Positions 40,564 to 59,851 of a DNA stretch of 64,000 nucleotides are shown one piece after another. Numbering within the stretch: position 1 is the stretch's first letter; the number at the start of each line of letters is the position of its first letter. A program made the position numbers and the translations under genes. The notes under the pieces were generated by a model. The model made no database searches, had not been told where the DNA came from, and worked only from the letters and a program-made list of their open reading frames with translations. Origin of the DNA: an uncultured Litoreibacter sp. (lineage in GTDB: Bacteria; Pseudomonadota; Alphaproteobacteria; Rhodobacterales; Rhodobacteraceae); the NCBI GenBank assembly GCA_947493265.1, contig CANLQL010000001.1:248001-312000 (forward strand), given 5' to 3'.

Positions 40564-40613
40564 AGGGATGCCTCTTGTCGTTTCCAGATACAGATGCGCG
40601 TCGGCATGGTCTA

Positions 40614-40639
40614 TAGGCCATCCGGTTGGGGATGGCCTA
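40614..40639 (-). terminator. hairpin between the exoY-like and TPR genes
   Basis: TAGGCCATC (40614-40622) and GATGGCCTA (40631-40639) pair perfectly over nine bases with an eight-base loop. The element lies in the 115-base gap downstream of the exoY-like gene and upstream of the TPR gene, both on the minus strand. No T run follows, so a partial terminator or processing site is the most that can be said. Confidence 0.55.
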
Positions 40640-40678
40640 GGGAAAAATTCAACTAAGCTTGGCGCTGCTTCAGCGGTC

Positions 40679-41873: not shown

Positions 41874-42758
41874 TTGAGCAGCGAACTGTACACCAGTTTT
41901 TACGGTCTTAGGGAAAGACCGTTTACGCTGTTGCCTGACCCGGACTTCATGTTCTGGTCAAAGGCGCACAAGCGGGCGTTTTCTGTTTTGGAATACGGGA
42001 TCATGTCCCGTTCACCGTTGACGGTTATCACCGGAGAAATTGGCGCAGGTAAAACGACACTTGTGCAAGCGCTTCTGAAATCGATCAGTAGTGATACCAT
42101 CGTTGGTTTGATCTCCAACGCGCAAGGGGGCCGCGGCGATCTGTTGCGCTGGGTTCTGAACGCTCTGGACGTGGCCCATGATCCGAAAGGCGATTACGTC
42201 GCCTTGCATCAGGTTCTGCAAGACTTCGCGATCAATCAGTATGCTGGCGGTCGAAACGTTGTGCTGATTATTGACGAGGCGCAAAACCTAACGATCGAGT
42301 TGCTTGAAGAGCTCAGGATGCTGACCAACATCAACTCGAACAAGGATGAGCTGTTGCAGCTAATCCTCGTTGGCCAGCCAGAGCTGCGCACGATGATCGA
42401 AGATCCTGCGCTTCGGCAGTTCGCGCAACGTGTCGCAGCCGCTTACCATATTCCGTCAATGGACATGAACACCACAGCCGCTTATATCCAACACCGGATG
42501 AGACATGCGGGTGGCACGGGTGCAGAGTTTTCGTCCGAAGCAATAGAAGCGATTTACAGAGTATCTGAAGGCGTGCCCAGAATGGTAAACAAGTTGTGCG
42601 ATCTTGCCCTCGTCTATGGGGCAGGTGCTGGTGAAAAAACTGTCACCGCGTCGATCATTCAAGAATTGATGAGCGATGGGATCTTCTTGAAACCCCAGTC
42701 CTCGGCGCCTTTGTTCTTAACTAATAGAGTCGATAGCTCGGGACTGAGTAACTCATGA
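41874..42758 (+). CDS. ExeA-like AAA ATPase of EPS/XrtA-type locus
   Basis: The 294-residue ATPase begins with YTSFYGLRERPFTLLPDPDF, typical of ExeA/GspA-like and exosortase-locus (XrtA-associated) ATPases. Walker A is GEIGAGKTT at residues 54-62 and Walker B is VVLIIDEAQ at 129-137; sensor-like VGQPELR and the arginine-rich FAQRVAAAYHI follow. No C-terminal peptidoglycan-binding domain is present. The start is TTG 41874 with AGAGG upstream. It overlaps the Wzz-like gene by four bases. In similar loci it is thought to energise or regulate polymer export, but its exact role is not known. Confidence 0.82.
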   Translation: MSSELYTSFYGLRERPFTLLPDPDFMFWSKAHKRAFSVLEYGIMSRSPLTVITGEIGAGKTTLVQALLKSISSDTIVGLISNAQGGRGDLLRWVLNALDVAHDPKGDYVALHQVLQDFAINQYAGGRNVVLIIDEAQNLTIELLEELRMLTNINSNKDELLQLILVGQPELRTMIEDPALRQFAQRVAAAYHIPSMDMNTTAAYIQHRMRHAGGTGAEFSSEAIEAIYRVSEGVPRMVNKLCDLALVYGAGAGEKTVTASIIQELMSDGIFLKPQSSAPLFLTNRVDSSGLSNS

Positions 42759-44287: not shown

Positions 44288-44322
44288 TCCCTCAGAAACA
44301 CCTGAACTAGTAGGATAGCACG

Positions 44323-45147
44323 ATGGAAAAACTGCAAAACGCTCTGCAAAACGCGCGCAAGAAACGCGCTGTGACATCTGCCGTAGTCCCGTCAGAAGAC
44401 CGCAAAGCCGTGCCTGCGAAAGAAAAAGAAGCAAGCAGCAGCTGGGATCAGATCACGCCGTTCACGCCGGATATGAAAGCGCTCAAGGATCACCGTGTTG
44501 TTTCGACCGAAGCAAGCAATCTTGCGATGCCCTATGATATTCTGCGCACGAAGCTGATGTTGGAAATGAAGAAAAACGGCTGGACCCGCTTGGCGATCAC
44601 CTCGCCCTCTCCGGCCTGCGGGAAGACGACCATTGCACTGAACTTGGCGTTCGGGTTGAGCCGTCAGATCGAAAAGCAGACATTGTTGTTCGATCTCGAC
44701 CTTCGTCGTCCCGGGATCAGCAAATATCTGAACCACAAACCGGACCACGATATTCGGGAGCTGTACGAAGGCAAGGTCGCGTTCAAAGACTATGCCGTGC
44801 GCGTGAATGAAAACCTGGCAATTGCCGGAATGCGCAACACGATCCCTGACCCGGCAAGCTTGCTGAACAGTGATCTGACCGCGGAAGTATTGGACGAAAT
44901 CCAGGGGACCTTTACCCCGGATGTGATGATCTTTGATCTTCCACCATTTCTTGCAAATGATGACACGCGGTCATTCCTCCGCAATGTCGATTGCGCGTTG
45001 CTGGTTGCAAAGGCAAACGAAACGCGGGTCGATCAGATTGATACTTGCGAACGTGAGGTTGCGCTGCACACCAATGTTGTGGGCATCGTTTTGAATCAGA
45101 GCCAAGTCACCAACGATACTCTTGGGTATGGATACGACGCGAACTAA
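44323..45147 (+). CDS. bacterial tyrosine kinase (CpsD/ExoP C-terminal type)
   Basis: BY-kinases control EPS polymerisation by cycles of autophosphorylation. The P-loop is ITSPSPACGKTTIALNLA (Lys101), Walker A' is LLFDLDLRRPG (residues 121-131) with its D-x-D-x-R pattern, and Walker B is VMIFDLPPF. The P-loop has Pro-Ala-Cys where Gly-Glu-Gly is usual, a noticeable deviation. The C-terminus has only two tyrosines (Y269, Y271 in LGYGYDAN) instead of a long tyrosine cluster. The start has AGGATAG eight bases upstream. It closes the ATPase-Wzz-kinase unit, and a strong hairpin spans its stop codon. Confidence 0.85.
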   Translation: MEKLQNALQNARKKRAVTSAVVPSEDRKAVPAKEKEASSSWDQITPFTPDMKALKDHRVVSTEASNLAMPYDILRTKLMLEMKKNGWTRLAITSPSPACGKTTIALNLAFGLSRQIEKQTLLFDLDLRRPGISKYLNHKPDHDIRELYEGKVAFKDYAVRVNENLAIAGMRNTIPDPASLLNSDLTAEVLDEIQGTFTPDVMIFDLPPFLANDDTRSFLRNVDCALLVAKANETRVDQIDTCEREVALHTNVVGIVLNQSQVTNDTLGYGYDAN

Positions 45148-45537: not shown

Positions 45538-46749
45538 ATGGCGAGAGTGACCTGTATTCTGCGCACGACGACACCGCGCCCGCATGTGCTTCACATCGCT
45601 TCGTCTTATCCTGACCCTATTGGCTCCGACACATCTGCAAGTTCCCTACTTTTGGAGTGTTCAGAGGGCTTCGAGCATACTGTTTTCTCCTTCAAAAGAA
45701 GGGGTTGGTACAGTGCCCCCACCCATATCCCGTTTTCTGATCAAGCGGGCCACGGCCACGAAGCAATCGCCTATGGCGCTCCTGGAAAGGGGGTTTTGTT
45801 CAAGCATAGCTTGGACAAGCTGGTCGATCTTATCTTCGCGCGAATATCGCAACGTGGACTGCAGCCTGTTATTCTCCACGGGCACAAATTAACCATGGAT
45901 GGGTATATTGCCTGGCGTTTGTCCCAGCGGCTAAAAATTCCCTATTGCCTGAGTTTGCAATCCAACACGGATTTGAAAATCCTGTCTGCGCGACCTGATA
46001 TGCGGGGGGTCTTCAAACAGATATGGCATTCTGCAAAGCTGTGTTTCGCCTTCGCACCGGTGGCGGAACACGCGATTTCCAGCCTTCTTGGAAATCGTCC
46101 TGAGCGTTGCATATACCTGCCGTGTCCGACGATGGCAGACGCGATTGTTCGCCCGGGAATCACCCCGCCTGATGGTCCAAAGACAATTGTCACGGCCTTC
46201 CATCTTCAGCACGCCAAAAACAAGAATGTTCTCCGATTGATGAAGGCCGTCAGAAAAGCGCGCCGTCAGGTCCCGAATATTCAACTGAAGATCGTTGGCG
46301 GCGGGGACGCTGCAAGTTTTCAAAAGGTCTCTGATGCTGCGCATTCGATTTGCCCGGGCCAAATCAAGATGGTCGGTGCGCTTCCGCAGGCCGGTATGCA
46401 AGCTTGTTTCAATCAGGCGACAGGCTTTGCGCTGCTTTCCCTGCGGGAGAGCTTTGGCATGGTCTATTCGGAAGCTCTTCTTGCTGGTCTGCCGATCCTG
46501 TATTCCAAAGGACGCGCGATTGATGGGTACTTTGAGGAAGGGGATTTTTCCCTGACGGCTGATCCACTCGATAGCGATTATATTGCCCGAAAACTTGTCA
46601 CACTTTGCCAGGAAGAAGCGTCGATGAAGTCTCGGCTAAAGGATGCACAAGACGCGGGCGTGCTGGATATTCTTCAGCGCGATCATATCGCGGCGACCTA
46701 TTCTGATGCTCTTAGAAATTGCCTCAACCCACAGGTTATTTCGGTTTGA
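45538..46749 (+). CDS. GT4 family glycosyltransferase
   Basis: A GT-B glycosyltransferase. The N-terminus is VLHIASSYPDPIGSDTSASS, and the donor-binding half has TIVTAFHLQHAKNKNVLRLMKAV, LKIVGGGDAASFQ and the E-x7-E segment LLSLRESFGMVYSEALLAGLPIL. Start choice: ATG 45538 overlaps the only AAGGA, which is well spaced for GTG 45547, so the latter may be the real start. Its TGA overlaps the TTG of the flippase gene, so the two are coupled. The sugar specificity is unknown. Confidence 0.83.
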   Translation: MARVTCILRTTTPRPHVLHIASSYPDPIGSDTSASSLLLECSEGFEHTVFSFKRRGWYSAPTHIPFSDQAGHGHEAIAYGAPGKGVLFKHSLDKLVDLIFARISQRGLQPVILHGHKLTMDGYIAWRLSQRLKIPYCLSLQSNTDLKILSARPDMRGVFKQIWHSAKLCFAFAPVAEHAISSLLGNRPERCIYLPCPTMADAIVRPGITPPDGPKTIVTAFHLQHAKNKNVLRLMKAVRKARRQVPNIQLKIVGGGDAASFQKVSDAAHSICPGQIKMVGALPQAGMQACFNQATGFALLSLRESFGMVYSEALLAGLPILYSKGRAIDGYFEEGDFSLTADPLDSDYIARKLVTLCQEEASMKSRLKDAQDAGVLDILQRDHIAATYSDALRNCLNPQVISV

Positions 46750-48245
46750 GTGTAGCCGACCCACGCGACGCAAGATTTGAGCTTGCGGATCGCGAAACCT
46801 CCCTTGCGCGTCAAGCGGGGCGGTCCGCGTCGACCATACTTCTGTTTTCCGTCTTGCGCGTCGTCTTGGCATTGGGATCAACCGCCTTCTTGGCTAGATT
46901 TGTGTCGCCTGCGGATCACGGCTTATTTGCAATGGTTTTGCCAGTTCTATTGGTCGCGTCAGGTCTTTCGGAATTTGGATTGGCACAGGCCGTCATACAG
47001 CAGAAAACAGTGACGCATCGGCTTGTATCGACGTTATTTTGGACCAATTTTGCGCTTGGACTAGCCCTTATGTTCGGGGTTGCATTTATCGCGCCCTACG
47101 CCGCGGATTTCTACGGAAAGCCTGATGTTGCCGAGCTGTTTTTATGGCTTTGCCCCTACGTTCTTCTGGTCGTTTTGAACACTCAGTTGGTGGCAATCCT
47201 CAGACGGCAATTCCGCATTCGCCAAATCGAAATTGTAAGCTTTGTCGCGACAGTGGTCGCCGCGATAGTCGCAGTGGCGATTGCGATTGCCGGGTACGGT
47301 GTCACAGCGCTGGTCGTTCAGCTTCTTCTGCAACCGGCACTCACGTTCACCGGACTTGCTTTGCTCGTGCGGTGGGTGCCGTCTCCCCCGTGGAAAGCTG
47401 ACTTTCGGGATGCACGAAGCGCGCTGAATTTCGGCGGGTTTCTCGCCGCCGAGCGTCTGCTTGGGGAGCTTGGTCGCAACATGCAGCTGGTTTTGATTGG
47501 CCGGTTATTTTCAGACATTCAGCTGGCATTTTTTCACAGAAGCTCGGTGATAGCGCAGATGCCGCAGCGCAGGCTTGGTGCCCCATTGCTTGGTGCGTTT
47601 TTGCCCGCACTCAGCCGGTTGCAACAGGATGGTCCGGCCTTTGAAGCTCTGTTTTTGCGGGTTCTTTCACGGTCCAATCTGATCTTGATCCCTATCGGTG
47701 CGGTTCTGATCGTTGTCCCTGATGTCGTTACTGGCATTCTTCTTGGACCGTCTTGGGATGAAGCTGTTCCGATCTTGCGGGTTCTGGGTGCTTTGCCAAT
47801 TTTTGCCATGAGCTTGACCTGCCTGGCCCAATCACTCGTCGCCTGTGGCCGGTCGCGGGAGTTGTTTTTCTTCCGCTGCATCAGCTTTTCCTTGTTGCTT
47901 TGCACGCTGTTTTTGTCCTCACCTTATGGGTTGCAGATCATGGTCAGCGCGTATCTTGTGATGCTGGTTTTGGGGCAGGGTAGTCTGTTGGCTTGGGTCA
48001 GTATCCGATACACGCCCCTGTCTTTCGCAGCGCTGGGCGGACGGTTTGCCAAAGATCTCGGATTTGCCGGGGTACTTGTCTTGCCTGCGCTGGTCGGGCG
48101 CATGGCATTCACGCGCAACCCGATGGTCGAAGCTTTGATCTTCTTCGTTTGGGTTCTTCTTGTTCTGGGACTGCGGATCGGGGCGTCACGTGCTCTGCGC
48201 CATGACATCAGACAGGTTTTCAGGCCCGCCAAAGCCGCACTTTAG
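46746..48245 (+). CDS. Wzx/RfbX-type oligosaccharide flippase
   Basis: The protein has about 12-14 hydrophobic segments and the look of the MOP/PST flippase family (WzxC-like), which turns lipid-linked repeating units across the inner membrane. The N-terminal segment STILLFSVLRVVLALGSTAFLARFVSPADHGLFAMVLPVLLVASGLSEFGLAQAVIQQ (its first half is one helix) is typical. I chose TTG 46746, which overlaps the previous TGA, giving 499 residues; TTG 46719 is also open. Its last 26 bases overlap the convergent GT2 gene. Confidence 0.87.
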   Translation: MSVADPRDARFELADRETSLARQAGRSASTILLFSVLRVVLALGSTAFLARFVSPADHGLFAMVLPVLLVASGLSEFGLAQAVIQQKTVTHRLVSTLFWTNFALGLALMFGVAFIAPYAADFYGKPDVAELFLWLCPYVLLVVLNTQLVAILRRQFRIRQIEIVSFVATVVAAIVAVAIAIAGYGVTALVVQLLLQPALTFTGLALLVRWVPSPPWKADFRDARSALNFGGFLAAERLLGELGRNMQLVLIGRLFSDIQLAFFHRSSVIAQMPQRRLGAPLLGAFLPALSRLQQDGPAFEALFLRVLSRSNLILIPIGAVLIVVPDVVTGILLGPSWDEAVPILRVLGALPIFAMSLTCLAQSLVACGRSRELFFFRCISFSLLLCTLFLSSPYGLQIMVSAYLVMLVLGQGSLLAWVSIRYTPLSFAALGGRFAKDLGFAGVLVLPALVGRMAFTRNPMVEALIFFVWVLLVLGLRIGASRALRHDIRQVFRPAKAAL

Positions 48246-49137
48246 TTTCTAGCCCGATCGCACGTGCTGCCATTGCGTGAAACTGAGTCCCCGGGTGATC
48301 TGAGAACTTTTCAGCTGAAAGAACGGCAAGAACTTCTCGGCCCAGCCGCAAAAGATTTGCACGAAATGCCGCTCGGGCGATGTGGTATAGTTCTGTACAA
48401 AGCGCGGGTTTATGACAGGAAAACCGTGTCCCTTTGCATCGATCAAGAACAGACGTGACCGCGTCAAATCTGCTTCGCAAAGCGCGTTCCGACTGACTGC
48501 GGGATATTGAATTGGCGTTGACCTGAGCGTGAATCGCAGCACCGTGTTCGCTTTTCCAAATAACGGGTTCAAACGTCATTGCGCGCAGGACGATCTCCAG
48601 ATCCTGTGCGCGGGCAAGCCCTTCGTTCCAAAGACCAATTTTTTCTAGAAAGCTGCACCGCCAGAGGATGGCTGACGGATTTACGTAATTTCCTGCCATC
48701 CATCCACCGAAGAAGGTGTCGGGATCAATCTGACCCTTGTAAAGCGGCCTACGAACAATCTCATTCCCTTCGGTTTCAATATGCATATTGGCCAGAATCA
48801 GGTCTGCATTTCGCTGGTCTGCAATGGCAATTGCGGGGTCAAGAACGGGGCCTTCATGATAGTCATCGGCGTCTAGAAACAGGACGTATTCCGCCCCCAT
48901 CTCGACAGCCTTGCGAAACCCTTTGTTTCGTGCATGACACGCGCCGCGATTTGGCCCGGAGAGCAGAATTACCGCTTCTCCGAAGTCTTCAATGGCGGCG
49001 ATAGAATTGTCGCTGGAGCCGTCATCTACCACAATAATTTTCAGATCAGAGACGCTTTGGTCCAATACCGATCTGATAGCGCGGCCAATCCAGGCAGCCG
49101 CGTTGAAACAAGGGATCACAACTGCGCTTTTTGTCAT
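48220..49137 (-). CDS. family 2 glycosyltransferase
   Basis: A GT-A fold enzyme. SAVVIPCFNAAAWIGRAIRSVL is at the N-terminus, IIVVDDGSSDNSIAAIEDF binds UDP, and EYVLFLDADDYHEG has the D-x-D metal site. LARAQDLEIVLRAMTF supplies the probable base region. Length is 305 residues. It is the last gene of a nitroreductase-pyruvyltransferase-GT2 unit on the minus strand, starting by ATGA overlap with the pyruvyltransferase gene. Specificity is unknown. Confidence 0.83.
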   Translation of the reverse strand: MTKSAVVIPCFNAAAWIGRAIRSVLDQSVSDLKIIVVDDGSSDNSIAAIEDFGEAVILLSGPNRGACHARNKGFRKAVEMGAEYVLFLDADDYHEGPVLDPAIAIADQRNADLILANMHIETEGNEIVRRPLYKGQIDPDTFFGGWMAGNYVNPSAILWRCSFLEKIGLWNEGLARAQDLEIVLRAMTFEPVIWKSEHGAAIHAQVNANSISRSQSERALRSRFDAVTSVLDRCKGTRFSCHKPALCTELYHIARAAFRANLLRLGREVLAVLSAEKFSDHPGTQFHAMAARAIGLETKVRLWRA

Positions 49138-50330
49138 ACGCGCAGCCCGACATGGGCAGTCATGGTTTTTGCGACATCGTCCCAGAGCATTGAAGATTTG
49201 CCCCGTACCTTTCCCGCATTGTGGCGCAAAAGGGCTGTCACGCGCGCCAACTGGGCAGCGGTCTCAAACCGCTCTAGTGCAGAGGAAATCTGTGCCGGGT
49301 CTTCCATAGTGACGGAAAACCCACCCAGACCATATTCCGCCATGAGGTGTTGATACTTGTGGCTCCATCCGCAAGCAAAACTGGGAACTCCAGAAGATAG
49401 CGCACTGACCAGCCCGTGATAGCGCGACGAAATAACGGCCTTGCTGTTTGCCAGAACCGCCTTTGTCTGCATTGGATCTTCGAGCGCAATAATCTCAACT
49501 GCGCTGCCAAGCGATCGGGCGATTGACATGTCTGCGCTGCCTTCATGGATCAGGATCGCGGCCTTGCCAGCGATGCGTTCCAGGCACGCAAGACTGTCGA
49601 CCAGAAATTCTTGATAGGCTGCCCTCGCGGTTTGATCCTTCCCGGCAACAATCTTGGCATTTGGAACCAGGATACCCAGATTGCGCCAGTGTTCCGGGCA
49701 ATGCGTGAGGTCGGCTTTCAGCAAGTTTGTGAAGTCGGGTGAAAGATGCGCATCTGTAATTCCTGCAGTTTGCAGATGGTTCAGGCTTTCTTTGTCTCGC
49801 GCATAGACGCGGGCAAATTGTGACAGTGTTTGTTCGACTGTGCTCTGGAAATCTTCGGAGGAAAACGGTCCCCAAGCTTGTGGCAAAGCGATCAGGCAAG
49901 TCTGATTGCGATCCCAAAGTGGCATTCGTCGCCGAAGAAAGTGGTCAAATTTCTGCTGCCCCCAATAGTCGCCATAGGCAAAGCCGGACGCGTCGAGAAC
50001 GATGTCAATTTCGTTGCTGTCCAATAGCCCCAGCCGCAGCCTTTGAGACTTCAGTTTGCGGGCAATAAACCCCTTGGCGCGTTTCGGCCCCCATCCTGAT
50101 TGCCAGTCGGCAGGTGTCACACCCCAAACGCCGAGCCTGACGCGGTCTTCAAAGGGCATCGATACGTCGACGCCAACTCTGATGTCAGCGAACCTTGCGC
50201 GAAGCTCTTGCAAGATCGTCAGCAACATCAGTTGTGCGCCCTGATTGTCAGGATCGATCCCAATGACCTCTACATTCAATGGCCGTTGTGTTGGGGCTGG
50301 AAATTTAAAGTCAGGGGCGTAAAGGGTCAT
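49134..50330 (-). CDS. polysaccharide pyruvyl transferase family protein
   Basis: The protein matches the CsaB/WcaK/ExoV family, which adds pyruvate ketals to EPS sugars. The N-terminal VEVIGIDPDNQGAQLMLLTILQEL includes the N-x-G-A-x-x-M pattern. DIVLDASGFAYGDYWG and LIALPQAWGPFSSEDFQ follow, and the C-terminal half has VISSRYHGLVSALSSGVPSFACGWSHKY, the conserved R-x-H-x3 segment of the family. Length is 398 residues. It lies between the nitroreductase gene (3 bases) and a GT2 gene (4-base overlap). Pyruvylation would add negative charge to the polymer. Confidence 0.85.
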   Translation of the reverse strand: MTLYAPDFKFPAPTQRPLNVEVIGIDPDNQGAQLMLLTILQELRARFADIRVGVDVSMPFEDRVRLGVWGVTPADWQSGWGPKRAKGFIARKLKSQRLRLGLLDSNEIDIVLDASGFAYGDYWGQQKFDHFLRRRMPLWDRNQTCLIALPQAWGPFSSEDFQSTVEQTLSQFARVYARDKESLNHLQTAGITDAHLSPDFTNLLKADLTHCPEHWRNLGILVPNAKIVAGKDQTARAAYQEFLVDSLACLERIAGKAAILIHEGSADMSIARSLGSAVEIIALEDPMQTKAVLANSKAVISSRYHGLVSALSSGVPSFACGWSHKYQHLMAEYGLGGFSVTMEDPAQISSALERFETAAQLARVTALLRHNAGKVRGKSSMLWDDVAKTMTAHVGLRV

Positions 50331-50333: not shown

Positions 50334-51446
50334 TTACGGGCTCTCTTCGAAAATGCGCATGTCATGGATCGGGCGTTTTGCGGAAAATGGCACAGGGACA
50401 TCCGGGTTCGGCCAGCCATAGCTGATCATCATTAAGACGCGTTCGTCCGGCTTGAGATGCAGCATCTTGGCGGCAGCACGTTCGCGCTTTGGCTCATCGG
50501 CCCAATTGATCACACAGGACGCGATGCCTTGCGCCTCAAGTCCGTAGACGAAGGACATCGCTGCAAGAGACGCATCGATATAGACGGCGTGGCGGTCGCG
50601 CGCATAGGGGTAAGCCCGAAGGTGACCGATCACGACGACGACAGCATTGATATTGTCAATAAATGACGTTGTGCCCATCGGCAGCGCAGCGACTTTTCGA
50701 GCTGTATTTGGCGTGTCAAAAATCCGAAACGTGAAGGCTTGACGATTGCATGCGCTTGGCGAAAATCGCGCAACATCGATGGCTTTGTCGACTTGGGTGC
50801 GCGGGACGGGTTTTGGCAGATAAGACCTGACCGACCGGCGTCGTAGACTTAGGTCTTTCAACGCGCTGATTTCGATAGGGTCAGCGTCAACATCCCGAAC
50901 ATAGGGCCTATTCTCAGTAGGAACATTTTGTTCAGCCGGACAAATCGCCCGGAACTCCTCATAGGTGCGGGAGATGCGGGGATCGGAGTGGGAAACAGTT
51001 CGAAAATAGGTTTCCAATACGTCCCGCGCCCAAGTGTATTCTGTGGTCATTGGAACAGTTTGCGAAAGCGCCCGAAACTCCTCCAATGTTTCTTCGATAT
51101 AATCCAGCGCAAACACTTTGCGGGGGTTTTCTGACACCAACCCCTTTTCGATCCGATGTATATTGCGACGAAGCAGATAGAGGCTTCTGGTGTCCTGCCG
51201 TCGTTCTTTCAGAAACGCCAGCCGTCCTGCGGCCACCGCTTTGTGTTCCCGGTCGAAGCTGTTTGAAAAGACTCGATAAAGAAGAAATCGTCCTACCGCA
51301 TTGGGTAGGATCAGGCGATCAATAAACCACGCTTTTGCGTTTGCCTTTGTGTGATCAAGCGAGATGCGCAGACTATGATACCGACGCGCAACAACCGGTT
51401 TGTAAGGATCTGGGATGATCCGTTTTCCGAGCGAAACAACAGTCAA
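50334..51446 (-). CDS. nitroreductase-family protein with long N-terminal extension
   Basis: Residues about 195-370 are a nitroreductase-type FMN domain, with LSLRRRSVRSYLPKPVPRTQVDKAID, FSPSACNRQAFTFRIFD and AAMSFVYGLEAQGIASCVINW. The first 190 residues are an unusual helical, basic extension (including LLRRNIHRIEKGLVSENPRKVFALDYIEETL) not found in ordinary nitroreductases. Such long forms are often found in EPS clusters next to pyruvyltransferase genes, as here, and may reduce a sugar or cofactor intermediate; their reaction is not established. The gene starts a minus-strand unit. Confidence 0.78.
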   Translation of the reverse strand: MTVVSLGKRIIPDPYKPVVARRYHSLRISLDHTKANAKAWFIDRLILPNAVGRFLLYRVFSNSFDREHKAVAAGRLAFLKERRQDTRSLYLLRRNIHRIEKGLVSENPRKVFALDYIEETLEEFRALSQTVPMTTEYTWARDVLETYFRTVSHSDPRISRTYEEFRAICPAEQNVPTENRPYVRDVDADPIEISALKDLSLRRRSVRSYLPKPVPRTQVDKAIDVARFSPSACNRQAFTFRIFDTPNTARKVAALPMGTTSFIDNINAVVVVIGHLRAYPYARDRHAVYIDASLAAMSFVYGLEAQGIASCVINWADEPKRERAAAKMLHLKPDERVLMMISYGWPNPDVPVPFSAKRPIHDMRIFEESP

Positions 51447-51478: not shown

Positions 51479-51560
51479 GAAACTAGAGATGTCTTGGTAA
51501 ATAAACTCTTACGAAAAAATCAAAAATTTGTAGCGATTGTTTGGGATTAAGGAATTCTTC

Positions 51561-52151
51561 ATGCCCTTGGCTGATCTATCAGATGTGATCCAAGCGGTGC
51601 GAATGAGGTTCCTGAAAATGAAAAGTCTCAATAAGCTCAAGCATGTGCGAAAGCTTGCGGTGGGTATGAAGAAATTCTGGCTAAGACGGGTTTGGGACAT
51701 GGATATCGACCCAACAGCAGAGCTGTCCTTGCGCGCAAAATTGGATATGACATTTCCGAAAGGTATCCATATCGGAGCACGCAGTTATGTGGCCTTCGAT
51801 GTGCGGATCATGACCCATGATATGACCCGCAACCTTCGCCTGCACACACGGATCGGCGAGAATTGTTTTGTCGGCGGCGGCTCAATTATCTTGCCTGGCG
51901 TCGAGGTCGGAAACCATTCGATCGTGGGCGCAGGGTCTATCGTGACGAAGTCAGTGCCGCCCGGATCCGTTGTTGCGGGCAACCCTGCAAAGATCATCAG
52001 CAGTCATCCTTACCTTTTAAGCTACGGGCGGTTCCCAAGCGCTGGTATCGATCCGTCCCTAGCGCCGCGCCAGCCGCAGAACCGGGGATGCGGCCAAGCC
52101 GCCACCGCACATAATGGATTGCCCCCAGAACCGCGCGTTTCCAGGCCTTAG
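51561..52151 (+). CDS. hexapeptide-repeat acyltransferase
   Basis: The protein belongs to the left-handed beta-helix (LbH) acyltransferase group, which acetylates EPS or LPS sugars. Hexapeptide repeats are seen from about residue 58 (AELSLRAKLDMTFPKGIHIGARSYVAF) to 150, with the family ending GGGSIILPGVEVGNHSIVGAGSIVTKSVPPGSVVAGNPAKII and a histidine (MTHDMTR) near the active site. ATG 51561 has AAGGA eight bases upstream; TTG 51537 is less likely. The last 40 residues are not typical of the family, and their DNA overlaps the convergent GT2 gene by 93 bases. Confidence 0.82.
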   Translation: MPLADLSDVIQAVRMRFLKMKSLNKLKHVRKLAVGMKKFWLRRVWDMDIDPTAELSLRAKLDMTFPKGIHIGARSYVAFDVRIMTHDMTRNLRLHTRIGENCFVGGGSIILPGVEVGNHSIVGAGSIVTKSVPPGSVVAGNPAKIISSHPYLLSYGRFPSAGIDPSLAPRQPQNRGCGQAATAHNGLPPEPRVSRP

Positions 52152-52955
52152 CCTGACGGCCCGCGCGGCATATGATGCGGCTTGCTGATATTTCCCCATC
52201 TTACGGCAAGCCCCTGCAATCCGGTTTAGATGAACTGCCTTTATCTGGGGGAATTGCGCGAGCACAGCGTCGTGTTTTTCTAAGATCCTGATCTGTGCGT
52301 CTAGCTGTTTGGCCCGGTCATGGGTCATTGAGTTCTCAGACATATGCTGATCAACAAGGACCTGATCGACCAAATCGATAGGGCCTAATTGTGCCAGCCG
52401 TATCATCATGTCCCAATCGTCCAGTGATCGAAATTTTGGGTCCATGCCGCCGATTTCGGCAAACTTTTCAGTCCGGATCATCACCGTTTGTGTCGAGATA
52501 AAACTATCGCGCAGGATCGCGTTTGAAAGGTTTCCCGAAAGATCAATCGACTGGTTCGGAACTTGTCCGATTTTGCACCCATCCTGAAACACAACCATCC
52601 GGCAGAAATTCGCAACTGCGGATGATTGGGTACTAGCGGCAAGTTGCAGGGCCAGCTTTTCGGGATGCCAATAGTCGTCACTGTCCTGAAATGCGATCCA
52701 AGGCGCCTTGGCGAAACCTGCGCCGTGGTTGCGTGCGTTGGCCGCGCCGGATTGTTCCGGCAGCGAAATGACAGTCAATCGGGCATCGTTGATCTGGTTC
52801 AAAACTTGAAGTGTCGCGTCTTGTGATCCGTCATCCACCGCAATGACTTCGATTTCTTGCAGGGTTTGGTCCAATACGCTGCGCACCGCGCGTGTCACCG
52901 TATGCGCCCTATTGTGACACGGGATGACAACTGACACTTTCGGGGATTGGGTCAT
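52059..52955 (-). CDS. family 2 glycosyltransferase
   Basis: A GT-A glycosyltransferase of 298 residues. VSVVIPCHNRAHTVTRAVRSVL, VIAVDDGSQDATLQVL and IAFQDSDDYWHPEKLALQ form the nucleotide and metal sites; FRSLDDWDMMIRLAQ is the probable base region. The C-terminal 60 residues are helical and basic (CRKMGKYQQAASYAARAVRLRPG), with a TPR-like look. It overlaps the Wzy-like gene by four bases upstream and the convergent acyltransferase gene by 93 bases. Specificity is unknown. Confidence 0.85.
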   Translation of the reverse strand: MTQSPKVSVVIPCHNRAHTVTRAVRSVLDQTLQEIEVIAVDDGSQDATLQVLNQINDARLTVISLPEQSGAANARNHGAGFAKAPWIAFQDSDDYWHPEKLALQLAASTQSSAVANFCRMVVFQDGCKIGQVPNQSIDLSGNLSNAILRDSFISTQTVMIRTEKFAEIGGMDPKFRSLDDWDMMIRLAQLGPIDLVDQVLVDQHMSENSMTHDRAKQLDAQIRILEKHDAVLAQFPQIKAVHLNRIAGACRKMGKYQQAASYAARAVRLRPGNARFWGQSIMCGGGLAASPVLRLARR

Positions 52956-54277
52956 TCGTCGAACCTGGAGAAAGGCAACTTTTCGGGCGGTCGTTGAGTT
53001 TCTTTTTCAGGCTTTTCGGGTGTGTAGAACCACGCGCCTGCGCCCAGAAAGAACATCACAAATACCCCGATGGATCCCCAGACATGCACCGTACAAAGTG
53101 TGAAGCATATCGCCAGTAGGGTGATCAGGTAGGCTTGCCTCAAACTCGCATCCTCAGGGGCTGTTATCGTGGCCCTCAAGCAGGCAATCACATGGACGGA
53201 AAAGCAAGCGACCAACAAGCCCCCACCGACGAACCCGTAACGCATCGTGTTCAAGAGCCAGAAGTTGTCGACCGAGTCCGTTAGCCAAGAGGGGCGCGTC
53301 CAGTCATTGAACCCGATGCCGAAGACCGGATGCGCGAAAGCTGCAGCGATCCCGGCATCAAATATTGCGATGCGGGTCCAGCCAGAAAGTGGGTTGAACG
53401 TCAGTCTTTCGATCAGGATCGTCACGGGTGTCCTGTCTGACAACAGATCAACGGTCACATATAGAAAGATCAACCCGCAGGTGAGGAATACCCATTTGCC
53501 GCCGGTCACCCGCGCCCAAGCCACCAAGATAACTTGGATCATACAAGCTAGGAGTGGTGCTGAGCTGAGCGATAGGAATGTCATGAAAAACGGGAGCGAA
53601 AGGGCGCACGCGGCAAGTAGCGGTCGCGATTTGTAGATCGTCGCAAGGCTGGCAATCACGGAAGCTGCGTATAGTCCAAATAGGATCGGGTGCTCAAAGA
53701 CGGCATAGACGCGCTCCAGCCCAAGTCGTCCATATGCGCTTCCTTCGCGGATATTTGACGTCATGATCTTATTGATGATCTCAGGGATAATCAGTGTGCC
53801 GGTCAATGTCTCAGCGATCGCAAAAGGCGCAAGAATGACCAGACTGCCTGTCATAAGTTTGATGACATAGCTGTAGTCTTGGGCCGAGCGGATCAGCACC
53901 CGACCGGCAAAATACGCTCCGAACGCTTCAATAACTGTGATCCCGGCAAAAGGTATCTGCGATGATCCATGAACAACGGTCAGGGCTATGGTGACCCACG
54001 CCCCGTAGCCAAGGACCAACACGTCTGCGGCGGTCACCCGTCCCGCGCGGCCCAGCAAAGTGTGGAGGCCGAAGGGCACACAAACGGCCAAGAGAAATAG
54101 GCGAAGCGGGCTTAATCGTAGGCCGAATGCCTCCTGATAGGCGGGGATAAGCATTGTGACAAACAGTGCCGTCAGAACAACCCGCCGGTAGTTGATTTGG
54201 CCCAACCGACTGACGCGGGTCGAAACCACACGCGGCGGGATCAAATCAAGCGTAAGGAATTCTCGGGTCAGATTCAT
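52952..54277 (-). CDS. O-antigen ligase/polymerase-like membrane protein (Wzy-like)
   Basis: The 441-residue protein has about ten to twelve hydrophobic segments and, in the middle, a large periplasmic loop region with PVFGIGFNDWTRPSWLTDSVDNFWLL, resembling the loop of O-antigen ligase/polymerase (Wzy/WaaL) proteins. With a Wzx flippase, Wzz, BY-kinase and Wza-like protein nearby, a polymerase role for the repeating unit is the natural inference, since no other candidate is seen in the window. It lies between the giant SGNH gene (95-base gap) and the GT2 gene. Confidence 0.78.
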   Translation of the reverse strand: MNLTREFLTLDLIPPRVVSTRVSRLGQINYRRVVLTALFVTMLIPAYQEAFGLRLSPLRLFLLAVCVPFGLHTLLGRAGRVTAADVLVLGYGAWVTIALTVVHGSSQIPFAGITVIEAFGAYFAGRVLIRSAQDYSYVIKLMTGSLVILAPFAIAETLTGTLIIPEIINKIMTSNIREGSAYGRLGLERVYAVFEHPILFGLYAASVIASLATIYKSRPLLAACALSLPFFMTFLSLSSAPLLACMIQVILVAWARVTGGKWVFLTCGLIFLYVTVDLLSDRTPVTILIERLTFNPLSGWTRIAIFDAGIAAAFAHPVFGIGFNDWTRPSWLTDSVDNFWLLNTMRYGFVGGGLLVACFSVHVIACLRATITAPEDASLRQAYLITLLAICFTLCTVHVWGSIGVFVMFFLGAGAWFYTPEKPEKETQRPPEKLPFSRFDE

Positions 54278-54372: not shown

Positions 54373-57300
54373 TTATGGGCTGGACGACTTGTAAGGGTGG
54401 TCGTTTGGAAGGTTGTCTTGTGTCCCTGTCAGGTGGGCCAAGTATCCTTCAATTCGCTGATGATCGGCGGCAGACGGGATCGCGCTAAGCAGGACGACAG
54501 CGCTGAGAGTCCCGTTGCCAAAGAACGTGGCGGTCGTGGTTTCCATCATGCCGACATAGTCCACGGAGATACCCTGCCCAAGGTGAACTGCCCAGATCGC
54601 CTCGGCATTGCGTTTGGCCTCCGCATTGATCGTTGCGTAGGACAGGGCAATGTTCGTCCCGGTTTGAGCTGCAGGTTCCATCGGGCGTCCATCCATCGAT
54701 GCATTCCCTGTTGTCCCCGTTGATCCCGTTCCGTCGACCGATACCGTGTAATCTGCCTTGTCGCCGCCCCGCACGAAAACATGCTGCGCCGTCGAGCCGG
54801 ACGTGAAGTCTTGCCCAATAACAGGTGTCACAAATGCCGAATTGCTCGACCCGCCGCTCATGTCCCGCGCGACGAAATAGGCGGCGCGGATCGTTGGAAG
54901 TGGCGAGGCATAGCTTAGGCCACCACTGGCAAAAGTCAGCGCTGCTGCGCCTTGTGCGCCGGCGGTCTCATATAGGACAGTGCCTGTGGGCGCGTTCAAA
55001 CTCAGCGTTCGGTTGTTGACGGATTTGTCTAGCCAGGTGGCCACGTCACTGCCGGAAGATAGCGTTAGTTCAGAGCCATCCGTGATCTCATGCCACGCGC
55101 TGAGCTCAGCAAGATTTGCGGGGGTCCAGGTTCCCGGAAGGGTCACTGTATCCGTGGCAGTGACGGCTGCCCGTGGTGGCATCGTCCAGGCCCCACCGAC
55201 AATCAGACCATGAACCGGGAGACCAAGCCCAAGAACATCGTCACCCCACACTTCGTAAAGCTCCCCGTCGGCGATTGTCAGTTCGGTCGCTACATCGGTG
55301 AACCCATAAGGGTCACCCACTTTGCCCACCTGTACGCCAGAGGGCCAGATGCCCGTATCTGGTGTAATGCGAACCTTGTTGCCGATGATGGCTGCAGAAA
55401 ATCCATCATAGCTCCAGTTAGTCCCGCCATCGGTTGAAACCTGCCACCCGCTCAGGTTTGTGGGTGTAGGGGAATAGAGCGTTCCGCCATTTGGAAGCGT
55501 GAAATCAACGTCAACATACCCACCACTTTCTGCGCGCGACGCGGTTCCGGCCAGTGCTGGGTTTTGGGACGTATCAAGACCCAGATCGCGTGCAAGCGTG
55601 ACCGCCATCCGAACACCCATCACAGCGTTTCCGGATGCCGTACCCTCGGGATGTGCGCTGTCTTTCAACGGGTAGTCTGTAATTGTTGGCCCAACGGTGA
55701 AACCCCGTGAGTTCGCATCCAGAACAACGTTTTCACGCCAGTCACCAATGCTGTAGCCGTGCCGTGTCGGGGGGTTGACCATGAAGCGGTATCCTGGGTC
55801 CAAAACATCGGCAAGGCTGTGATCGACGGTATAGCCATGAGTGCTGACACCGGTGATGATGTCGAAATACTGACCTGCAGCATCGCCAAGCCCACCACCC
55901 CCGCGGTTGCTGGTGTCCCAATGGGAAATAACGGCGGTATAGTCGCCCCCGTATCGATCGGTTTTGGATTGCAGGTCGCTCCAGTTGCGCATCGTGTCTG
56001 CATCATCGACCAGCTGTAGAACGCCCGTGCCTTCGATCGCCTCGCGCACCAGCATCAGCGGCGTATCAGGGTCGAAAACGCGGAATTGGTCAACGAAGGC
56101 CGACAGCCCATCGCGATCATCCGTGGCCCCTAACAGAGAGATCGTTTCCCCACCCGGATCCTGGTTCTGCCAGAAGCTGACCGTGTCGTAGTTTGCGACG
56201 TTCATCGTGTAGACTGCCGGATCGGCATTCGCATTTGTGAAAATGGACATCTGCGATTGTCCAAGAAGCATGACCTTGTAGCCAACCGCCCATTTGACGG
56301 TATTTGGCGTGATCTCGCTTTCGCCGACATACCGAAGCTCAGTGTTCAACCAGCCATCGGATTTTGGAACTGTTAGTGAGCCGCTAAAGGTCCCAGCGGA
56401 AACCGTGCCAATTGACGTCCAACCAACAACCTCACTGCTGTCGCTTGCCCGGATGAGGCGGGCTTCAACAGTGTAGCTGTCCTCACCAGTGCCGCGGATA
56501 TCAACCGTTCGGCTTGCCGCGCCTCCGACCAATCCAATAACCAGCCCGTCGATCAACGTACCGGGATTCACGGTGCCTGGTGCTGTTATGCTTGTGATCA
56601 AAGGCGCATCAATATCAAGCACCTGCGGAATTGCACTGATCGTGCTCCAGTGATTGGAGAAAAACACGGAATCGGTGAAGTGTTGCGCCCCGTCAAGATC
56701 AGTAAAGCCGCCAAAAAGTGACGGGTAGTCATTGTTCGTGGAAGGCTCCGAAACAGAAACAGCGCGCAGGAGATAGCCTTCGCTGTCTTCTAGTTGGTTC
56801 GGTTGCAGACCCAATGCTTTGATAAACATTATCTGACCTGCCCAGCGCTGAAGGTCGCGGTAGGCAACATCCGCTGAGGGGGAGAAGTACGACCGCCGCC
56901 CGGTTGATCCGTCTTGTGCATACCCGGCCCGCAGTGCCCAATCATATTGCCCGGCATCGATCCATCCAGCCGGGGGCGCAAAGGTGATCACATCACCGGC
57001 AGAAAATGGCGGGGTTGGTTGGGCATCAATCGGCAGCGCGATGTCTTCATTTGCCGTTGCAGGGAAGCTCGTGGTTTCAACAATCTCGGCAGTTGCGCCA
57101 TCGCTTTCCCGCGTTGCGATCATGCCGCGGTGAATGGTGACTTGCTGCCAATCGCCATGAACGCCACCCGCGCCACCATAGGTCGTCGGAACCAGCAGGG
57201 CGATACCGCCCGGTTGCGGTGGCAATGTCCTGCGTCGCGAGAATCCCGGTTTCTCAAGATCATCATGGGGCGCAAAATCATCTGCCAGCATGTCTTGTGT

Positions 57301-58776
57301 CACCCGGAACGCCTGGCGGAAATTACCACCCGTGTCTGCAAGGATGGTGGAAATGTCTGCGCGTCTGCCCGTGGCTTCCAGCGCAAAGACAATCGGGGCG
57401 ATATGGAATTGGTGATGCCCGCCATCAACAGACAGCGCAACGCCGGACCCTTTTATTGGGTCACCCCACTCGATCCCGTGCTGGATCATCTTCCACGCGA
57501 TCTGACGGCGCTGGGCTGGCGTGTAGACGTCGCTGATCAAAGCCATTGAGGCCATGTTGATCATGTTTGCGATATCGCGCCCGTATCCGGAACCGCTGAT
57601 CCCGCTGAACCCATCTGGCATCAGGTTTTCATATCCCCAACTTGAATTCGTCGCTGTGTTTTGCGGGTAGGCGGCGGTAAACTTCCCAAGGGAATTCATT
57701 AAAGTTGCGAAAGGCGGGAAGCTTAGTCCTGTGGCGTCATAGCTTGGAAGGCTTGCCAGCAAGCCGTCCATATCGACGCTGAAATAGCCCGGCACCCCGC
57801 GCCCAGTCCAACCCGTCGTTGCATCAAGGATCGTTCCAGCTGGGAGGATCTGGTCAACGATGTGCAAAGCCGCATAGTCGGAGATGTATCCGTCATCACC
57901 CTGTTTTGGCGCTGAAGAAACAGCAACCATAACAATATCGCCTGCTGTCACACTGACACTGTCGCCTTGATTGAGCAGGGGATCATATGTCTCCGAAATG
58001 CGGGCATCGAAGCCTTGTGATTGTTGGTAGCTGCCATCGCGAATTGGGTTTAGCTGGACCCCACTGATTGCCAGCCCACCGTCTGTCGTCGAACCGCGTT
58101 CGATTGTCAGTGTTTCAGTTCCGGTGGCCAGAACCATGTAGGCTTTCCCCGCAGCATCTAGACCAAAAACCCGCTCTTCAGGGGCGGTGAAGCTGACGCC
58201 ATTCATCGTGATGCTGCTGGACGTATCCGCAATCACCGTAGCACCGGTTGAATAGGTCTGTGGCCCGTTTGCGCCGCCATCTGCCTGCACCCGCCAAACC
58301 AACGACCCAGCCTGATCTGACGTGTAGCTGAAGCCACCGGGCTCAGCGACCATCTGCGCTGTGACGTCGATACCATCAAGCATCAGGGTTGGGGTCAGCG
58401 TGCTTCCTGCAGCGGTTCCTTCAGTCAGTTGGAAGACCGTTCCAACCGGCCCCTCCGCCGGAACCAGACTTGGCAAGACCGAGAACGGGCTTTCGTTTGA
58501 CGCAGGTGTGTCACCTGACAGGGAGGTCGAAAGTGAAATTTCCATAAGCGGGGCCTTATCTGAGCTCTGTGAAATACCGGAGAGATCAGCCAATGGGCCT
58601 GTCGTCCCCCGCATTTCCCGTGTCCAACGGATGCTGGGCGCAGGTTGCGCCTCGAGCGTGGGCCAGTCTTGCCGTTCTGTACTTACAAAACCTGATGGCA
58701 CCGCGCGCAGGGCCAAAACGACCACCGCCAACACCAAAGCCCAAGTGAGACTTCTCAGAAATTTCTCATGAAACAC
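54373..58776 (-). CDS. giant secreted/anchored protein with SGNH hydrolase and LamG-like domains
   Basis: A 1467-residue protein with an N-terminal membrane segment (residues about 9-28) and no clear cleavage site. Residues about 330-500 and 600-715 are rich in helical blocks (DIANMINMASMALISDVYTPAQRRQIAW; GGHHQFHIAPIVFALEATGRR) and may form an alpha/alpha toroid as in polysaccharide lyases. Beta-sandwich-like stretches lie between the domains. Residues about 832-1065 look like an SGNH esterase: block I is LLGQSQMSIF with Ser841 and the D-x-x-H motif is DSAH at 1039-1042. The C-terminus (about 1220-1467) is LamG-like and ends with HQRIEGYLAHLTG and LPNDHPYKSSSP. It starts the giant-wzy-GT2 unit. 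I infer a polymer-modifying enzyme, possibly lyase plus deacetylase. Confidence 0.7.
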   Translation of the reverse strand: MFHEKFLRSLTWALVLAVVVLALRAVPSGFVSTERQDWPTLEAQPAPSIRWTREMRGTTGPLADLSGISQSSDKAPLMEISLSTSLSGDTPASNESPFSVLPSLVPAEGPVGTVFQLTEGTAAGSTLTPTLMLDGIDVTAQMVAEPGGFSYTSDQAGSLVWRVQADGGANGPQTYSTGATVIADTSSSITMNGVSFTAPEERVFGLDAAGKAYMVLATGTETLTIERGSTTDGGLAISGVQLNPIRDGSYQQSQGFDARISETYDPLLNQGDSVSVTAGDIVMVAVSSAPKQGDDGYISDYAALHIVDQILPAGTILDATTGWTGRGVPGYFSVDMDGLLASLPSYDATGLSFPPFATLMNSLGKFTAAYPQNTATNSSWGYENLMPDGFSGISGSGYGRDIANMINMASMALISDVYTPAQRRQIAWKMIQHGIEWGDPIKGSGVALSVDGGHHQFHIAPIVFALEATGRRADISTILADTGGNFRQAFRVTQDMLADDFAPHDDLEKPGFSRRRTLPPQPGGIALLVPTTYGGAGGVHGDWQQVTIHRGMIATRESDGATAEIVETTSFPATANEDIALPIDAQPTPPFSAGDVITFAPPAGWIDAGQYDWALRAGYAQDGSTGRRSYFSPSADVAYRDLQRWAGQIMFIKALGLQPNQLEDSEGYLLRAVSVSEPSTNNDYPSLFGGFTDLDGAQHFTDSVFFSNHWSTISAIPQVLDIDAPLITSITAPGTVNPGTLIDGLVIGLVGGAASRTVDIRGTGEDSYTVEARLIRASDSSEVVGWTSIGTVSAGTFSGSLTVPKSDGWLNTELRYVGESEITPNTVKWAVGYKVMLLGQSQMSIFTNANADPAVYTMNVANYDTVSFWQNQDPGGETISLLGATDDRDGLSAFVDQFRVFDPDTPLMLVREAIEGTGVLQLVDDADTMRNWSDLQSKTDRYGGDYTAVISHWDTSNRGGGGLGDAAGQYFDIITGVSTHGYTVDHSLADVLDPGYRFMVNPPTRHGYSIGDWRENVVLDANSRGFTVGPTITDYPLKDSAHPEGTASGNAVMGVRMAVTLARDLGLDTSQNPALAGTASRAESGGYVDVDFTLPNGGTLYSPTPTNLSGWQVSTDGGTNWSYDGFSAAIIGNKVRITPDTGIWPSGVQVGKVGDPYGFTDVATELTIADGELYEVWGDDVLGLGLPVHGLIVGGAWTMPPRAAVTATDTVTLPGTWTPANLAELSAWHEITDGSELTLSSGSDVATWLDKSVNNRTLSLNAPTGTVLYETAGAQGAAALTFASGGLSYASPLPTIRAAYFVARDMSGGSSNSAFVTPVIGQDFTSGSTAQHVFVRGGDKADYTVSVDGTGSTGTTGNASMDGRPMEPAAQTGTNIALSYATINAEAKRNAEAIWAVHLGQGISVDYVGMMETTTATFFGNGTLSAVVLLSAIPSAADHQRIEGYLAHLTGTQDNLPNDHPYKSSSP

Positions 58777-58827
58777 GCAGGAAAACTCGATTTTGAACGC
58801 TGCTTAGGAACCATTGAGATGCCGAAA

Positions 58828-58882
58828 CAAGGTTAACAATTCGGAAATCTTCCGAGGCTACCGTTCGCCGGAATTAACCTTG
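58828..58882. promoter_or_regulatory. nested inverted repeats between the giant gene and the GT2 gene
   Basis: CAAGGTTAA (58828-58836) and TTAACCTTG (58874-58882) are perfect nine-base inverted copies. Inside them, TCGGAA (58841-58846) and TTCCGA (58850-58855) form a short perfect hairpin with a three-base loop. The right arm ends ten bases before the GT2 start, near its ribosome binding region. TTAACC again recalls a CtrA half-site. It could be a DNA operator for the divergent genes or a leader-RNA fold. Confidence 0.5.
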
Positions 58883-58891
58883 AGTGGACAG

Positions 58892-59851
58892 ATGAAAAAT
58901 GAAAATCCTAGATCAGCGCTTGAACTTTCGATCATTGTCATCAGCTACAATACGCGCGATCTGACGCTGGATTGCCTACGGTCCGTCTTTGATCAAACAA
59001 AGTCTGAATGTGAGGTTTTGGTGGTCGACAACGCGTCAGAGGATGGGTCTGCCGACGCGATTGCACGGGAATTCCCACAAGTTCGGCTGTTTCGTGAATC
59101 GATCAATCATGGGTTTGGACCCGCACACCATATCGCAATGGCCGATGCCCGCGCGCCGTTTGTCTTGTTTCTAAACCCAGATACAGTTGTTCTTGATCAC
59201 GCGATAGACAAGCTTTTCGGATTTGCTCGCCAGATTCCGCGGGCAGGTATCTGGGGCGGACGAACGTTATTTTCGGACGGTCGCGTTAACCCCACATCAT
59301 GTTGGCAAGCGATGAGCGCGTGGTCCCTCATATGTCAGGTCACAGGGCTCAATCGGTTGTTTTCAAGCAACGCATTCTTCAATCCCGAAGGGGTCGGTGG
59401 CCGCCTGCAGAAGAAGCCTGTTGCGGTTGATATCGTGACTGGATGCTTTCTGCTGACAAAGGCCGATACTTGGTTCCAGTTGGGTGGCTTCAATCGCCTC
59501 TTTAGGATGTACGGCGAGGAGGCGGATTTCTGTCTTCGGGCGAAAAAGCAGCTCGGTCTTCAGCCGATGGTCACGCCAGACGCAACGATCATCCACCACG
59601 GCAGCGCGAGCGAACCGTCTGCCACAGAAAAAATGGTTCGATTGCTCAAGGCGAAAACACAGCTGATCCAGTGTCATTTCCTGTCCCGTGATCGCGCGAT
59701 TGCGTTGCGGTTGCTTCAATGGTGGCCCTTGTCACGATGGATAACGCTTGCGCTGGCTTCCCGAATAACCAGTTCAGAGCGACTAAAAGAGAGATCCCAT
59801 CATTGGCGGCAAATTTGGGTTCGCCGGGACGAGTGGTCTTCAGGCTTCTGA
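58892..59851 (+). CDS. family 2 glycosyltransferase, WbbL rhamnosyltransferase-like
   Basis: The protein resembles the WbbL-type GT2 group. LSIIVISYNTRDLTLDCLRSVFDQ, VLVVDNASEDGSADAIA and FVLFLNPDTVVLDHAI are the donor and metal sites; VTGCFLLTKADTWFQLGGFNRLFRMYGEEADFCLRAKK is the typical catalytic stretch of this group (in two parts). WbbL enzymes use dTDP-rhamnose, which the rfbCBDA unit in this locus would supply, but use of rhamnose here is inference. ATG 58892 gives 319 residues; the open frame starts earlier at 58814, but that part carries the inverted repeats. Confidence 0.82.
   Translation: MKNENPRSALELSIIVISYNTRDLTLDCLRSVFDQTKSECEVLVVDNASEDGSADAIAREFPQVRLFRESINHGFGPAHHIAMADARAPFVLFLNPDTVVLDHAIDKLFGFARQIPRAGIWGGRTLFSDGRVNPTSCWQAMSAWSLICQVTGLNRLFSSNAFFNPEGVGGRLQKKPVAVDIVTGCFLLTKADTWFQLGGFNRLFRMYGEEADFCLRAKKQLGLQPMVTPDATIIHHGSASEPSATEKMVRLLKAKTQLIQCHFLSRDRAIALRLLQWWPLSRWITLALASRITSSERLKERSHHWRQIWVRRDEWSSGF

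Follow-up and report, generated by a model that had tools for sequence, protein, structure and literature searches.

A conserved SGNH-type protein of Rhodobacteraceae exopolysaccharide loci with relatives in phage tail clusters: a candidate exported O-acetylesterase

Introduction

In an exopolysaccharide (EPS) locus of an uncultured Litoreibacter sp. (Rhodobacteraceae), a gene for a protein of 1467 residues, here termed P0001, stands next to the gene for a Wzy-like polymerase, and the question raised by this locus is what such a protein might do to the polymer made there. The window, i.e. the whole stretch of DNA analysed, comprises 64,000 nucleotides (assembly GCA_947493265.1, contig CANLQL010000001.1, positions 248,001 to 312,000). 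A preliminary description had read P0001 as a membrane-anchored combination of a lyase-like toroid, an SGNH esterase and a LamG-like domain. We report that P0001 belongs to a conserved protein family that is linked to EPS loci, that co-occurs with a hexapeptide-repeat acetyltransferase and that has members in phage tail clusters. With moderate confidence, we consider P0001 to be an exported O-acetylesterase acting on the polymer of its own locus.

Conservation of P0001 and its SGNH-type region

The open reading frame (ORF) first described at 54373-58776 is real and lies on the minus strand; the opposite (plus) strand reading of the same interval is riddled with stops. Since a stop-free relative of 1434 residues, 43% identical to P0001, occupies a comparable position in a second genome (G196), P0001 is regarded as a conserved gene. 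The motifs GQSQM (with Ser841) and DSAH (residues 1039-1042) were located exactly where the preliminary description had put them.

Residues 735-1215 define a family without an existing label, found chiefly in Rhodobacteraceae. In an alignment of 19 family sequences Gln840, Ser841, Gly916 and Arg930 stand in invariant columns, even though some members share as little as 16% identity with the window protein; the column of His986 has His in 18 sequences and that of Trp953 has Trp in 17. The order of motifs is that of Blocks I, II and V of the SGNH superfamily, with 201-273 residues between Ser and His. The Block I Ser is present throughout, within GQS in 17 members and within EQS in two, and the Block II Gly corresponds to the Gly916 column. 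P0001 itself has the DxxH of Block V (DSAH), as do 13/19 sequences in all, and some His occurs within the 17-residue Block V stretch of every member. The features of P0001, with the evidence for each, are as follows:

54373..58776, minus strand: P0001, predicted exported multidomain protein with SGNH-type region (1467 codons, GTG start, uninterrupted)
58684..58776, minus strand: residues 1-31, basic N-terminal end plus a hydrophobic stretch that may be an anchor or a signal peptide (hydropathy, sequence)
57877..58524, minus strand: residues 85-300, N-terminal region common to the window and G196 (alignment)
56617..57789, minus strand: residues 330-720, helix-rich module with beta insert at about 545-600, putative fold (alignments, profile, low-confidence model)
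56281..56544, minus strand: residues 745-832, small beta domain preceding the SGNH region (model and family conservation)
55552..56289, minus strand: residues 830-1075, predicted SGNH-type catalytic region (alignments)
56254..56256, minus strand: codon of Ser841 in GQSQM, invariant in 19/19 (alignment)
55651..55662, minus strand: codons of DSAH 1039-1042, Block V-like, DxxH in 13/19 (alignment)
55162..55539, minus strand: residues 1080-1205, post-SGNH region NGGxLYSP...GLGxPV, kept in closer relatives (alignments)
54376..55131, minus strand: residues 1216-1467, LamG-like module at motif level only, absent from the G196 relative (motif-level evidence)

Databases gave little by which to name the protein. 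P0001 matched no family in Pfam at E ≤ 0.1 or in NCBIfam at E ≤ 1 and no sequence in the PDB at E ≤ 10, further PDB sequence searches being at chance level only; its single PHROG match (E value 0.046) has no function assigned there. All 19 aligned members stayed below the Pfam cut-offs over the segment scanned, and five members scanned against NCBIfam gave no match.

As to the beginning of the protein, a clear ribosome-binding site was not visible by eye upstream of the GTG, so the start codon is uncertain; a sigma-70-type promoter was not found in 58500-59100. Residues 13-31 form the sole strong hydrophobic stretch (mean Kyte-Doolittle value 2.27, best elsewhere 1.45). This stretch may be the proposed membrane anchor or a cleaved signal peptide, because signal-peptide-like N-termini were recognised by eye in three of five relatives inspected (L015, L016 and L017).

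The EPS locus and its acetyltransferase

Judging from its gene content, the window locus is a Wzx/Wzy-type EPS locus. P0001 is followed on the same strand, after a gap of 95 bp, by the Wzy-like gene and then by a GT2 gene, the last two overlapping by 4 bp; this order agrees with the preliminary reading, in which P0001 may start a unit with both. The neighbouring genes are:

52952..54277, minus strand: Wzy-like polymerase, PF04932 below cut-off at 28.1 of 31.7 bits (Pfam)
52059..52955, minus strand: GT2 glycosyltransferase (Pfam)
51537..52151, plus strand: hexapeptide-repeat acetyltransferase, AcT (family scans, co-occurrence)
50334..51446, minus strand: nitroreductase-family protein (Pfam)
49134..50330, minus strand: polysaccharide pyruvyl transferase (Pfam)
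46719..48245, plus strand: Wzx-type flippase, Polysacc_synt_3 (Pfam)
41874..45147, plus strand: ATPase, chain-length determinant and tyrosine kinase, XrtA/PEP-CTERM-like, below NCBIfam cut-offs (NCBIfam)
37374..41362, minus strand: Wza-type export protein, PrsT-like TPR protein (below cut-off) and initiating sugar transferase (NCBIfam)
58814..59851, plus strand: divergent GT2 with a 53% relative in the G196 locus (Pfam, alignment)

A search for the same domain order beside wzy, suggested earlier, was answered in part by G196. The 43% relative, whose C-terminal part differs, immediately precedes a Wzy relative (54%) there, and relatives of the GT2, acetyltransferase and Wzx genes lie nearby. 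A similar gene set in rearranged order is present in G311.

The linkage to EPS genes was assessed over 24 regions with family matches (L014-L022, L054-L062 and L120-L125; excluded were L052, the window itself and L063/L064, which are duplicates), two regions each coming from G297, G231, G010 and G341. Of these 24 regions, 15 (14/18 plus 1/6) had one or more members of a set of nine EPS core genes, against 0/20 control stretches, which were taken at hand-picked coordinates from five family-positive genomes. L014 and L015 were trimmed to about 10 kb around the gene, and L014 is then without a core gene, though its wider region is an EPS locus; L015 and L018 were counted through the acetyltransferase alone (57% and 37%); L120 is a 5.7-kb contig, and the L125 match is confined to some 100 residues within the beta domain. 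Conservation and genomic context together support the earlier view of an exported SGNH-type protein belonging to the EPS locus.

The hexapeptide acetyltransferase of the window has matches at E ≤ 1e-25 in 14/198 genomes, namely in all eight family-positive genomes and in 6/190 others (Fisher p 6e-11). At ≥ 50% identity, the figures are 5/8 and 5/190 (p 5e-6), and these five family-positive genomes, namely G000 (the window genome), G010, G103, G107 and G196, have it in the same locus as the SGNH gene. The acetyltransferase regions of the six family-negative genomes, one being a 3.8-kb contig, contained no family member at E ≤ 10; a Wzy relative was found in four of them, other EPS core genes in one and neither in one. 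Large ORFs in the acetyltransferase regions of G060, G019 and G192 have beta-helix matches, one below the Pfam cut-off. From these few loci we infer that there may be one locus slot for exchangeable polymer-tailoring proteins.

It should be added that G192 (L094, 5241-8849) encodes, in a gene set near to that of the window, a 1203-residue protein with beta-helix, PKD and LamG parts and no SGNH-family match. In the same region a 48% relative of the nitroreductase-family gene at 50334-51446 adjoins a pyruvyl transferase gene. The sole exosortase match of the window genome lies on another contig (L096, G000:C5:7141-7905), despite the XrtA-type accessory genes in the EPS locus. Genes for dTDP-rhamnose (rfbCBDA-like, named by eye) at 29436-32834 of the window adjoin the EPS locus.

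Distribution of relatives

Genome searches scored few candidates per genome, and the genome counts are lower bounds. With the single P0001 sequence, matches were obtained in at least 11 of 394 genomes of the same family, some of them involving just the C-terminal module or a short piece near the N-terminus, and a profile of residues 735-1215 (A1) had matches in at least 18 of the 394. Across 385 class-wide genomes the same profile gave at least two matches, the window genome and one partial match, and a wider profile (A9) matched in at least 8/198 genomes. A second genome of the same genus had no family match with either profile. Profile A3 had two matches in the collection of genome contigs, a Rhodobacteraceae metagenome-assembled genome (L063, the G196 contig) and Pseudoroseicyclus aestuarii (L064, the G311 contig). 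Single-sequence scans with P0001 found no relative in the genome-contig and viral-contig collections, and profile A7 found no match in the latter.

Some relatives are plasmid-borne, in Alloyangia pacifica and Haematobacter massiliensis. Both plasmids (L014, L015) carry SGNH-family and EPS genes; the Alloyangia pacifica plasmid also has xrtD and xrtE, and the Haematobacter massiliensis one has two copies. In an EPS region, L121 (G280:C22), a family member is broken by a stop codon into two ORFs.

Relatives in phage tail clusters

Three members occur among phage genes, a context absent from the preliminary description. In G231 (L062), tape-measure, distal-tail, tail and J-like tail-fibre genes precede the member and an endolysin gene follows it; in G010 (L124) it is preceded by genes for a J-like tail protein and a tail fibre, and in G341 (L123) a match to the terminase large subunit (E value 7e-13) lies about 5 kb away. 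The tail protein preceding the G231 member matches 657 phage records, and because some of these are annotated as gene-transfer-agent-like we use the term phage tail cluster and not intact prophage. The phage-tail members of G231 and G010 had no match in the phage collection, and P0001 matches in named phages involve its C-terminal part only (query 1156-1467). The L062 protein is extended at its N-terminus, and this extension, ahead of the SGNH region, gives a weak beta-helix match (E value 0.0092, below cut-off).

G231 also has a copy in an EPS locus (L021), with Wzx and Wzy relatives. The two copies are 79% identical over 709 residues and 83% over 1835 nucleotides, and the next best match of the phage-side protein in a 25-sequence set is at 47%. 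Such identity indicates that copies have moved, directly or indirectly and in one direction or the other, between the EPS locus and the phage tail cluster, and copies this similar fit an enzyme that targets the polymer of the host itself. Our confidence in the esterase reading, evenly balanced beforehand, was raised slightly by the phage-tail relatives. More speculatively, Rhodobacteraceae hosts and their phages may trade one family of polymer-modifying esterases between EPS loci and tail clusters, bacteria finishing their own EPS with it and phage tails penetrating the polymer; P0001 would be the EPS-locus form with an added helical module, possibly a second polymer-acting enzyme. We hold this wider picture only tentatively and think it rather doubtful as a whole.

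Modules around the SGNH-type region

Among the sequences examined, only those of the window and G196 combine the N-terminal region with both the helical module and the SGNH region in a single chain. The C-terminal part of the G196 protein is unlike the window module, and in other members the SGNH region is fused to differing N-terminal parts, some jelly-roll-like by eye; Pfam did not recognise these jelly-roll-like parts in L014, L015 and L017.

Structure models were obtained with AlphaFold. For residues 735-1215 (3-row alignment) the mean predicted local distance difference test (pLDDT) value was 41.6, and residues 745-832 were the only well-predicted part (mostly pLDDT 70-88). For residues 188-735 (2-row alignment) the mean was 37.0, with strands at 188-308 in this low-confidence model. 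Foldseek with the low-confidence helical model, the only model searched, returned 0 matches at E ≤ 0.001.

Of the lyase-like toroid proposed earlier for the helical part, the sequence GGHHQFHIAP was found at residues 452-461; the toroid itself was not confirmed (model pLDDT 37), and the His residues are not kept in a stand-alone homologue. Across the three sequences in all, GGHHQFH keeps two of three His in G196 and becomes GGLWSFM, with 0/3, in the G297 protein. There the helical module stands alone, in an ORF called at 651 codons whose real start is probably later. The helical part had no Pfam or PDB sequence match among polysaccharide lyase families, and we regard the idea of a polysaccharide lyase as weakened. 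A helical-profile match in G083 (E value 5.9e-5) concerns an ORF with a 46-position match (E value 0.0016 at Z 100,000) and no BLAST match to P0001; that region holds relatives of the ATPase and chain-length genes of the window locus. The helical module alone had no match in plasmids or phages. On one contig of G297 (C28; L018, L019 and L052), three SGNH-family genes accompany the stand-alone helical-module gene, like parts of P0001 dealt out separately.

The LamG fold claimed for the C-terminus was not borne out. A Pfam scan of residues 1216-1467 gave no family at E ≤ 1, so that the cut-off of the LamG / concanavalin A-like model (PF13385) was not reached; one relative of the module reaches Laminin_G_3 at an E value of 0.076 only, and the assignment stays at motif level.

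Proposed function and its alternatives

How viscous a bacterial polymer is, how it gels and how well it withstands enzymes are all altered by acetylation. As a polysaccharide O-acetylesterase, P0001 would be exported and would act on the EPS of the same Wzx/Wzy-type locus, either extracellularly or while the polymer is in the periplasm. Ser841 would attack an acetyl (or other acyl) ester on a sugar, activated by His1042 with Asp1039, while Gln840 and the backbone of Gly916 would hold the oxyanion, as in SASA and CE20 enzymes. Acetylation would be the task of the locus-encoded hexapeptide acetyltransferase, and P0001 would remove some of the acetyl groups, thereby setting their final level; members in phage tails would use the same chemistry for passing the host polymer. 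Binding or positioning of the polymer may fall to the helical module, the LamG-like tail and the flanking beta domains; the helical module is perhaps an enzyme itself.

Several observations weigh against this assignment. The pLDDT is below 40 across nearly the whole SGNH region of the model, and hhalign to NanS aligned the GQS stretch only, with a probability of 0.2% (0.1% for the NanM control). The Block III Asn of SGNH proteins is not conserved in the 19 members (HW at 952-953 in the window, mostly NW or SW in others), the QGE of SASA (PF03629) at Block III was found between Ser and His in 0/19, and DxxH is missing from six. The SASA Pfam model matches one of the 19, under its cut-off (E value 0.017), and gave no match in the window genome at E ≤ 1, where a second family member was not found either. 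EPS core genes are lacking from 9/24 regions, three among phage genes (L062, L123 and L124) and six neither (L014, with a wider EPS locus containing xrtD and xrtE, L019, L061, L120, L122 and L125). The co-occurrence with the acetyltransferase is confounded by membership in EPS loci; in G063, G094 and G101 the acetyltransferase match is weaker (39-46% identity), lying about 25 kb off in G063 (40%), on another contig in G094 and more than 1 Mb off in G101. Finally, the phage-side copies of G010 and G341 show no special similarity to the second copy in their own genomes. On the other side, SASA enzymes are described with (H)QGE at Block III and without the general-family Asn there, and a figure legend gives EcNanS without the Block V Asp (PMC9487903). 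As EcNanS lacks this Asp, its absence from some members does not exclude activity.

A protein of the matrix, a scaffold or an adhesin would bind EPS through its modules and, its SGNH-type region being partly degenerate, would organise or anchor the polymer without modifying it. The six members without DxxH and the variable domain composition around the core suit such a role, but invariant Gln, Ser, Gly and Arg in sequences as distant as these are unusual for a purely structural domain, and P0001 retains both GQS and DxxH; we consider this explanation unlikely. Fusion of an esterase to a lyase, in which the SGNH part would deacetylate and the helical part would cut the polymer thus exposed, so as to trim or release chains, seems to us quite improbable. 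Contigs with SGNH-family genes do carry the helical module, as a fusion in the window and G196 and by itself in G297, and RbmB offers a precedent as a lyase encoded in the biofilm gene cluster of a Wzy-like system (PMC11637428). Against this stand the lack of any Pfam, NCBIfam or PDB match for the helical part, the change to GGLWSFM in the stand-alone homologue and helical models of too low confidence for use.

The putative catalytic residues might also serve the opposite direction, P0001 being an SGNH-type O-acetyltransferase that, like AlgX, AlgJ or PatB, acetylates the polymer in the periplasm. Its EPS location, the accompanying acetylation gene and the existence of AlgJ and AlgX as SGNH-like proteins of an EPS system (PMC4148444, PMC9487903) speak for it. 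However, the locus acetyltransferase is of the hexapeptide type, and phage-tail relatives suit removal more than addition. We further lowered this reading because the window genome has no MBOAT match (the same model matched 3/14 control genomes) and its two AT3 acyltransferase genes, one being L097 (G000:C5:25681-26670), are on other contigs; we judge it highly improbable. The O-acetylesterase assignment is therefore the one we retain. If it is true, the finishing of a polymer and its penetration by phages would be linked through one family of exported esterase-like proteins, found repeatedly in EPS loci with modules that can be exchanged, and in phage tail clusters too.

Comparison with known systems

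SASA / CE6-type SGNH esterases (PF03629; NanS, 3PT5) resemble the present family in the GQS nucleophile motif, with Gln beside Ser, and in the Block V His; they differ in the Block III QGE, absent from all 19 sequences here, and no profile match was significant. AlgX and AlgJ are transferases partnered with an MBOAT protein, for which the window genome has no match, and PgaB and PelA have a different deacetylase fold and belong to synthase-dependent systems, whereas P0001 is SGNH-type and stands in a Wzx/Wzy-type locus. The likeness lies, for AlgX and AlgJ, in being SGNH-like, periplasmic and part of an EPS system (PMC9487903, PMC4432689) and, for PgaB and PelA, in one EPS-system protein that joins a deacetylase to a second domain (PMC4432689). 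Among the titles and opening abstract lines surveyed, in a literature collection with few subscription journals, we found no description of P0001 or of its domain combination.

Two further groups were compared by description only. Klebsiella prophage tail fibres contain an SGNH domain aimed at the capsule, two of them being shown esterases (PMC13123978); some members of the present family are likewise found in phage tail clusters, but the Klebsiella proteins are phage receptor-binding proteins and do not belong to the polymer's own locus. The nearest described arrangement found is that of CE20 enzymes, with GQSNM, Gln in the oxyanion hole and beta-sandwich domains on either side of the SGNH domain (PMC12313940). 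GQS and the beta flanks are alike, the N-terminal flank alone being confidently predicted here, whereas the CE20 enzymes described there have DxH, an inserted ancillary domain and about 400 residues between Ser and His, against DxxH and 201 residues in P0001.

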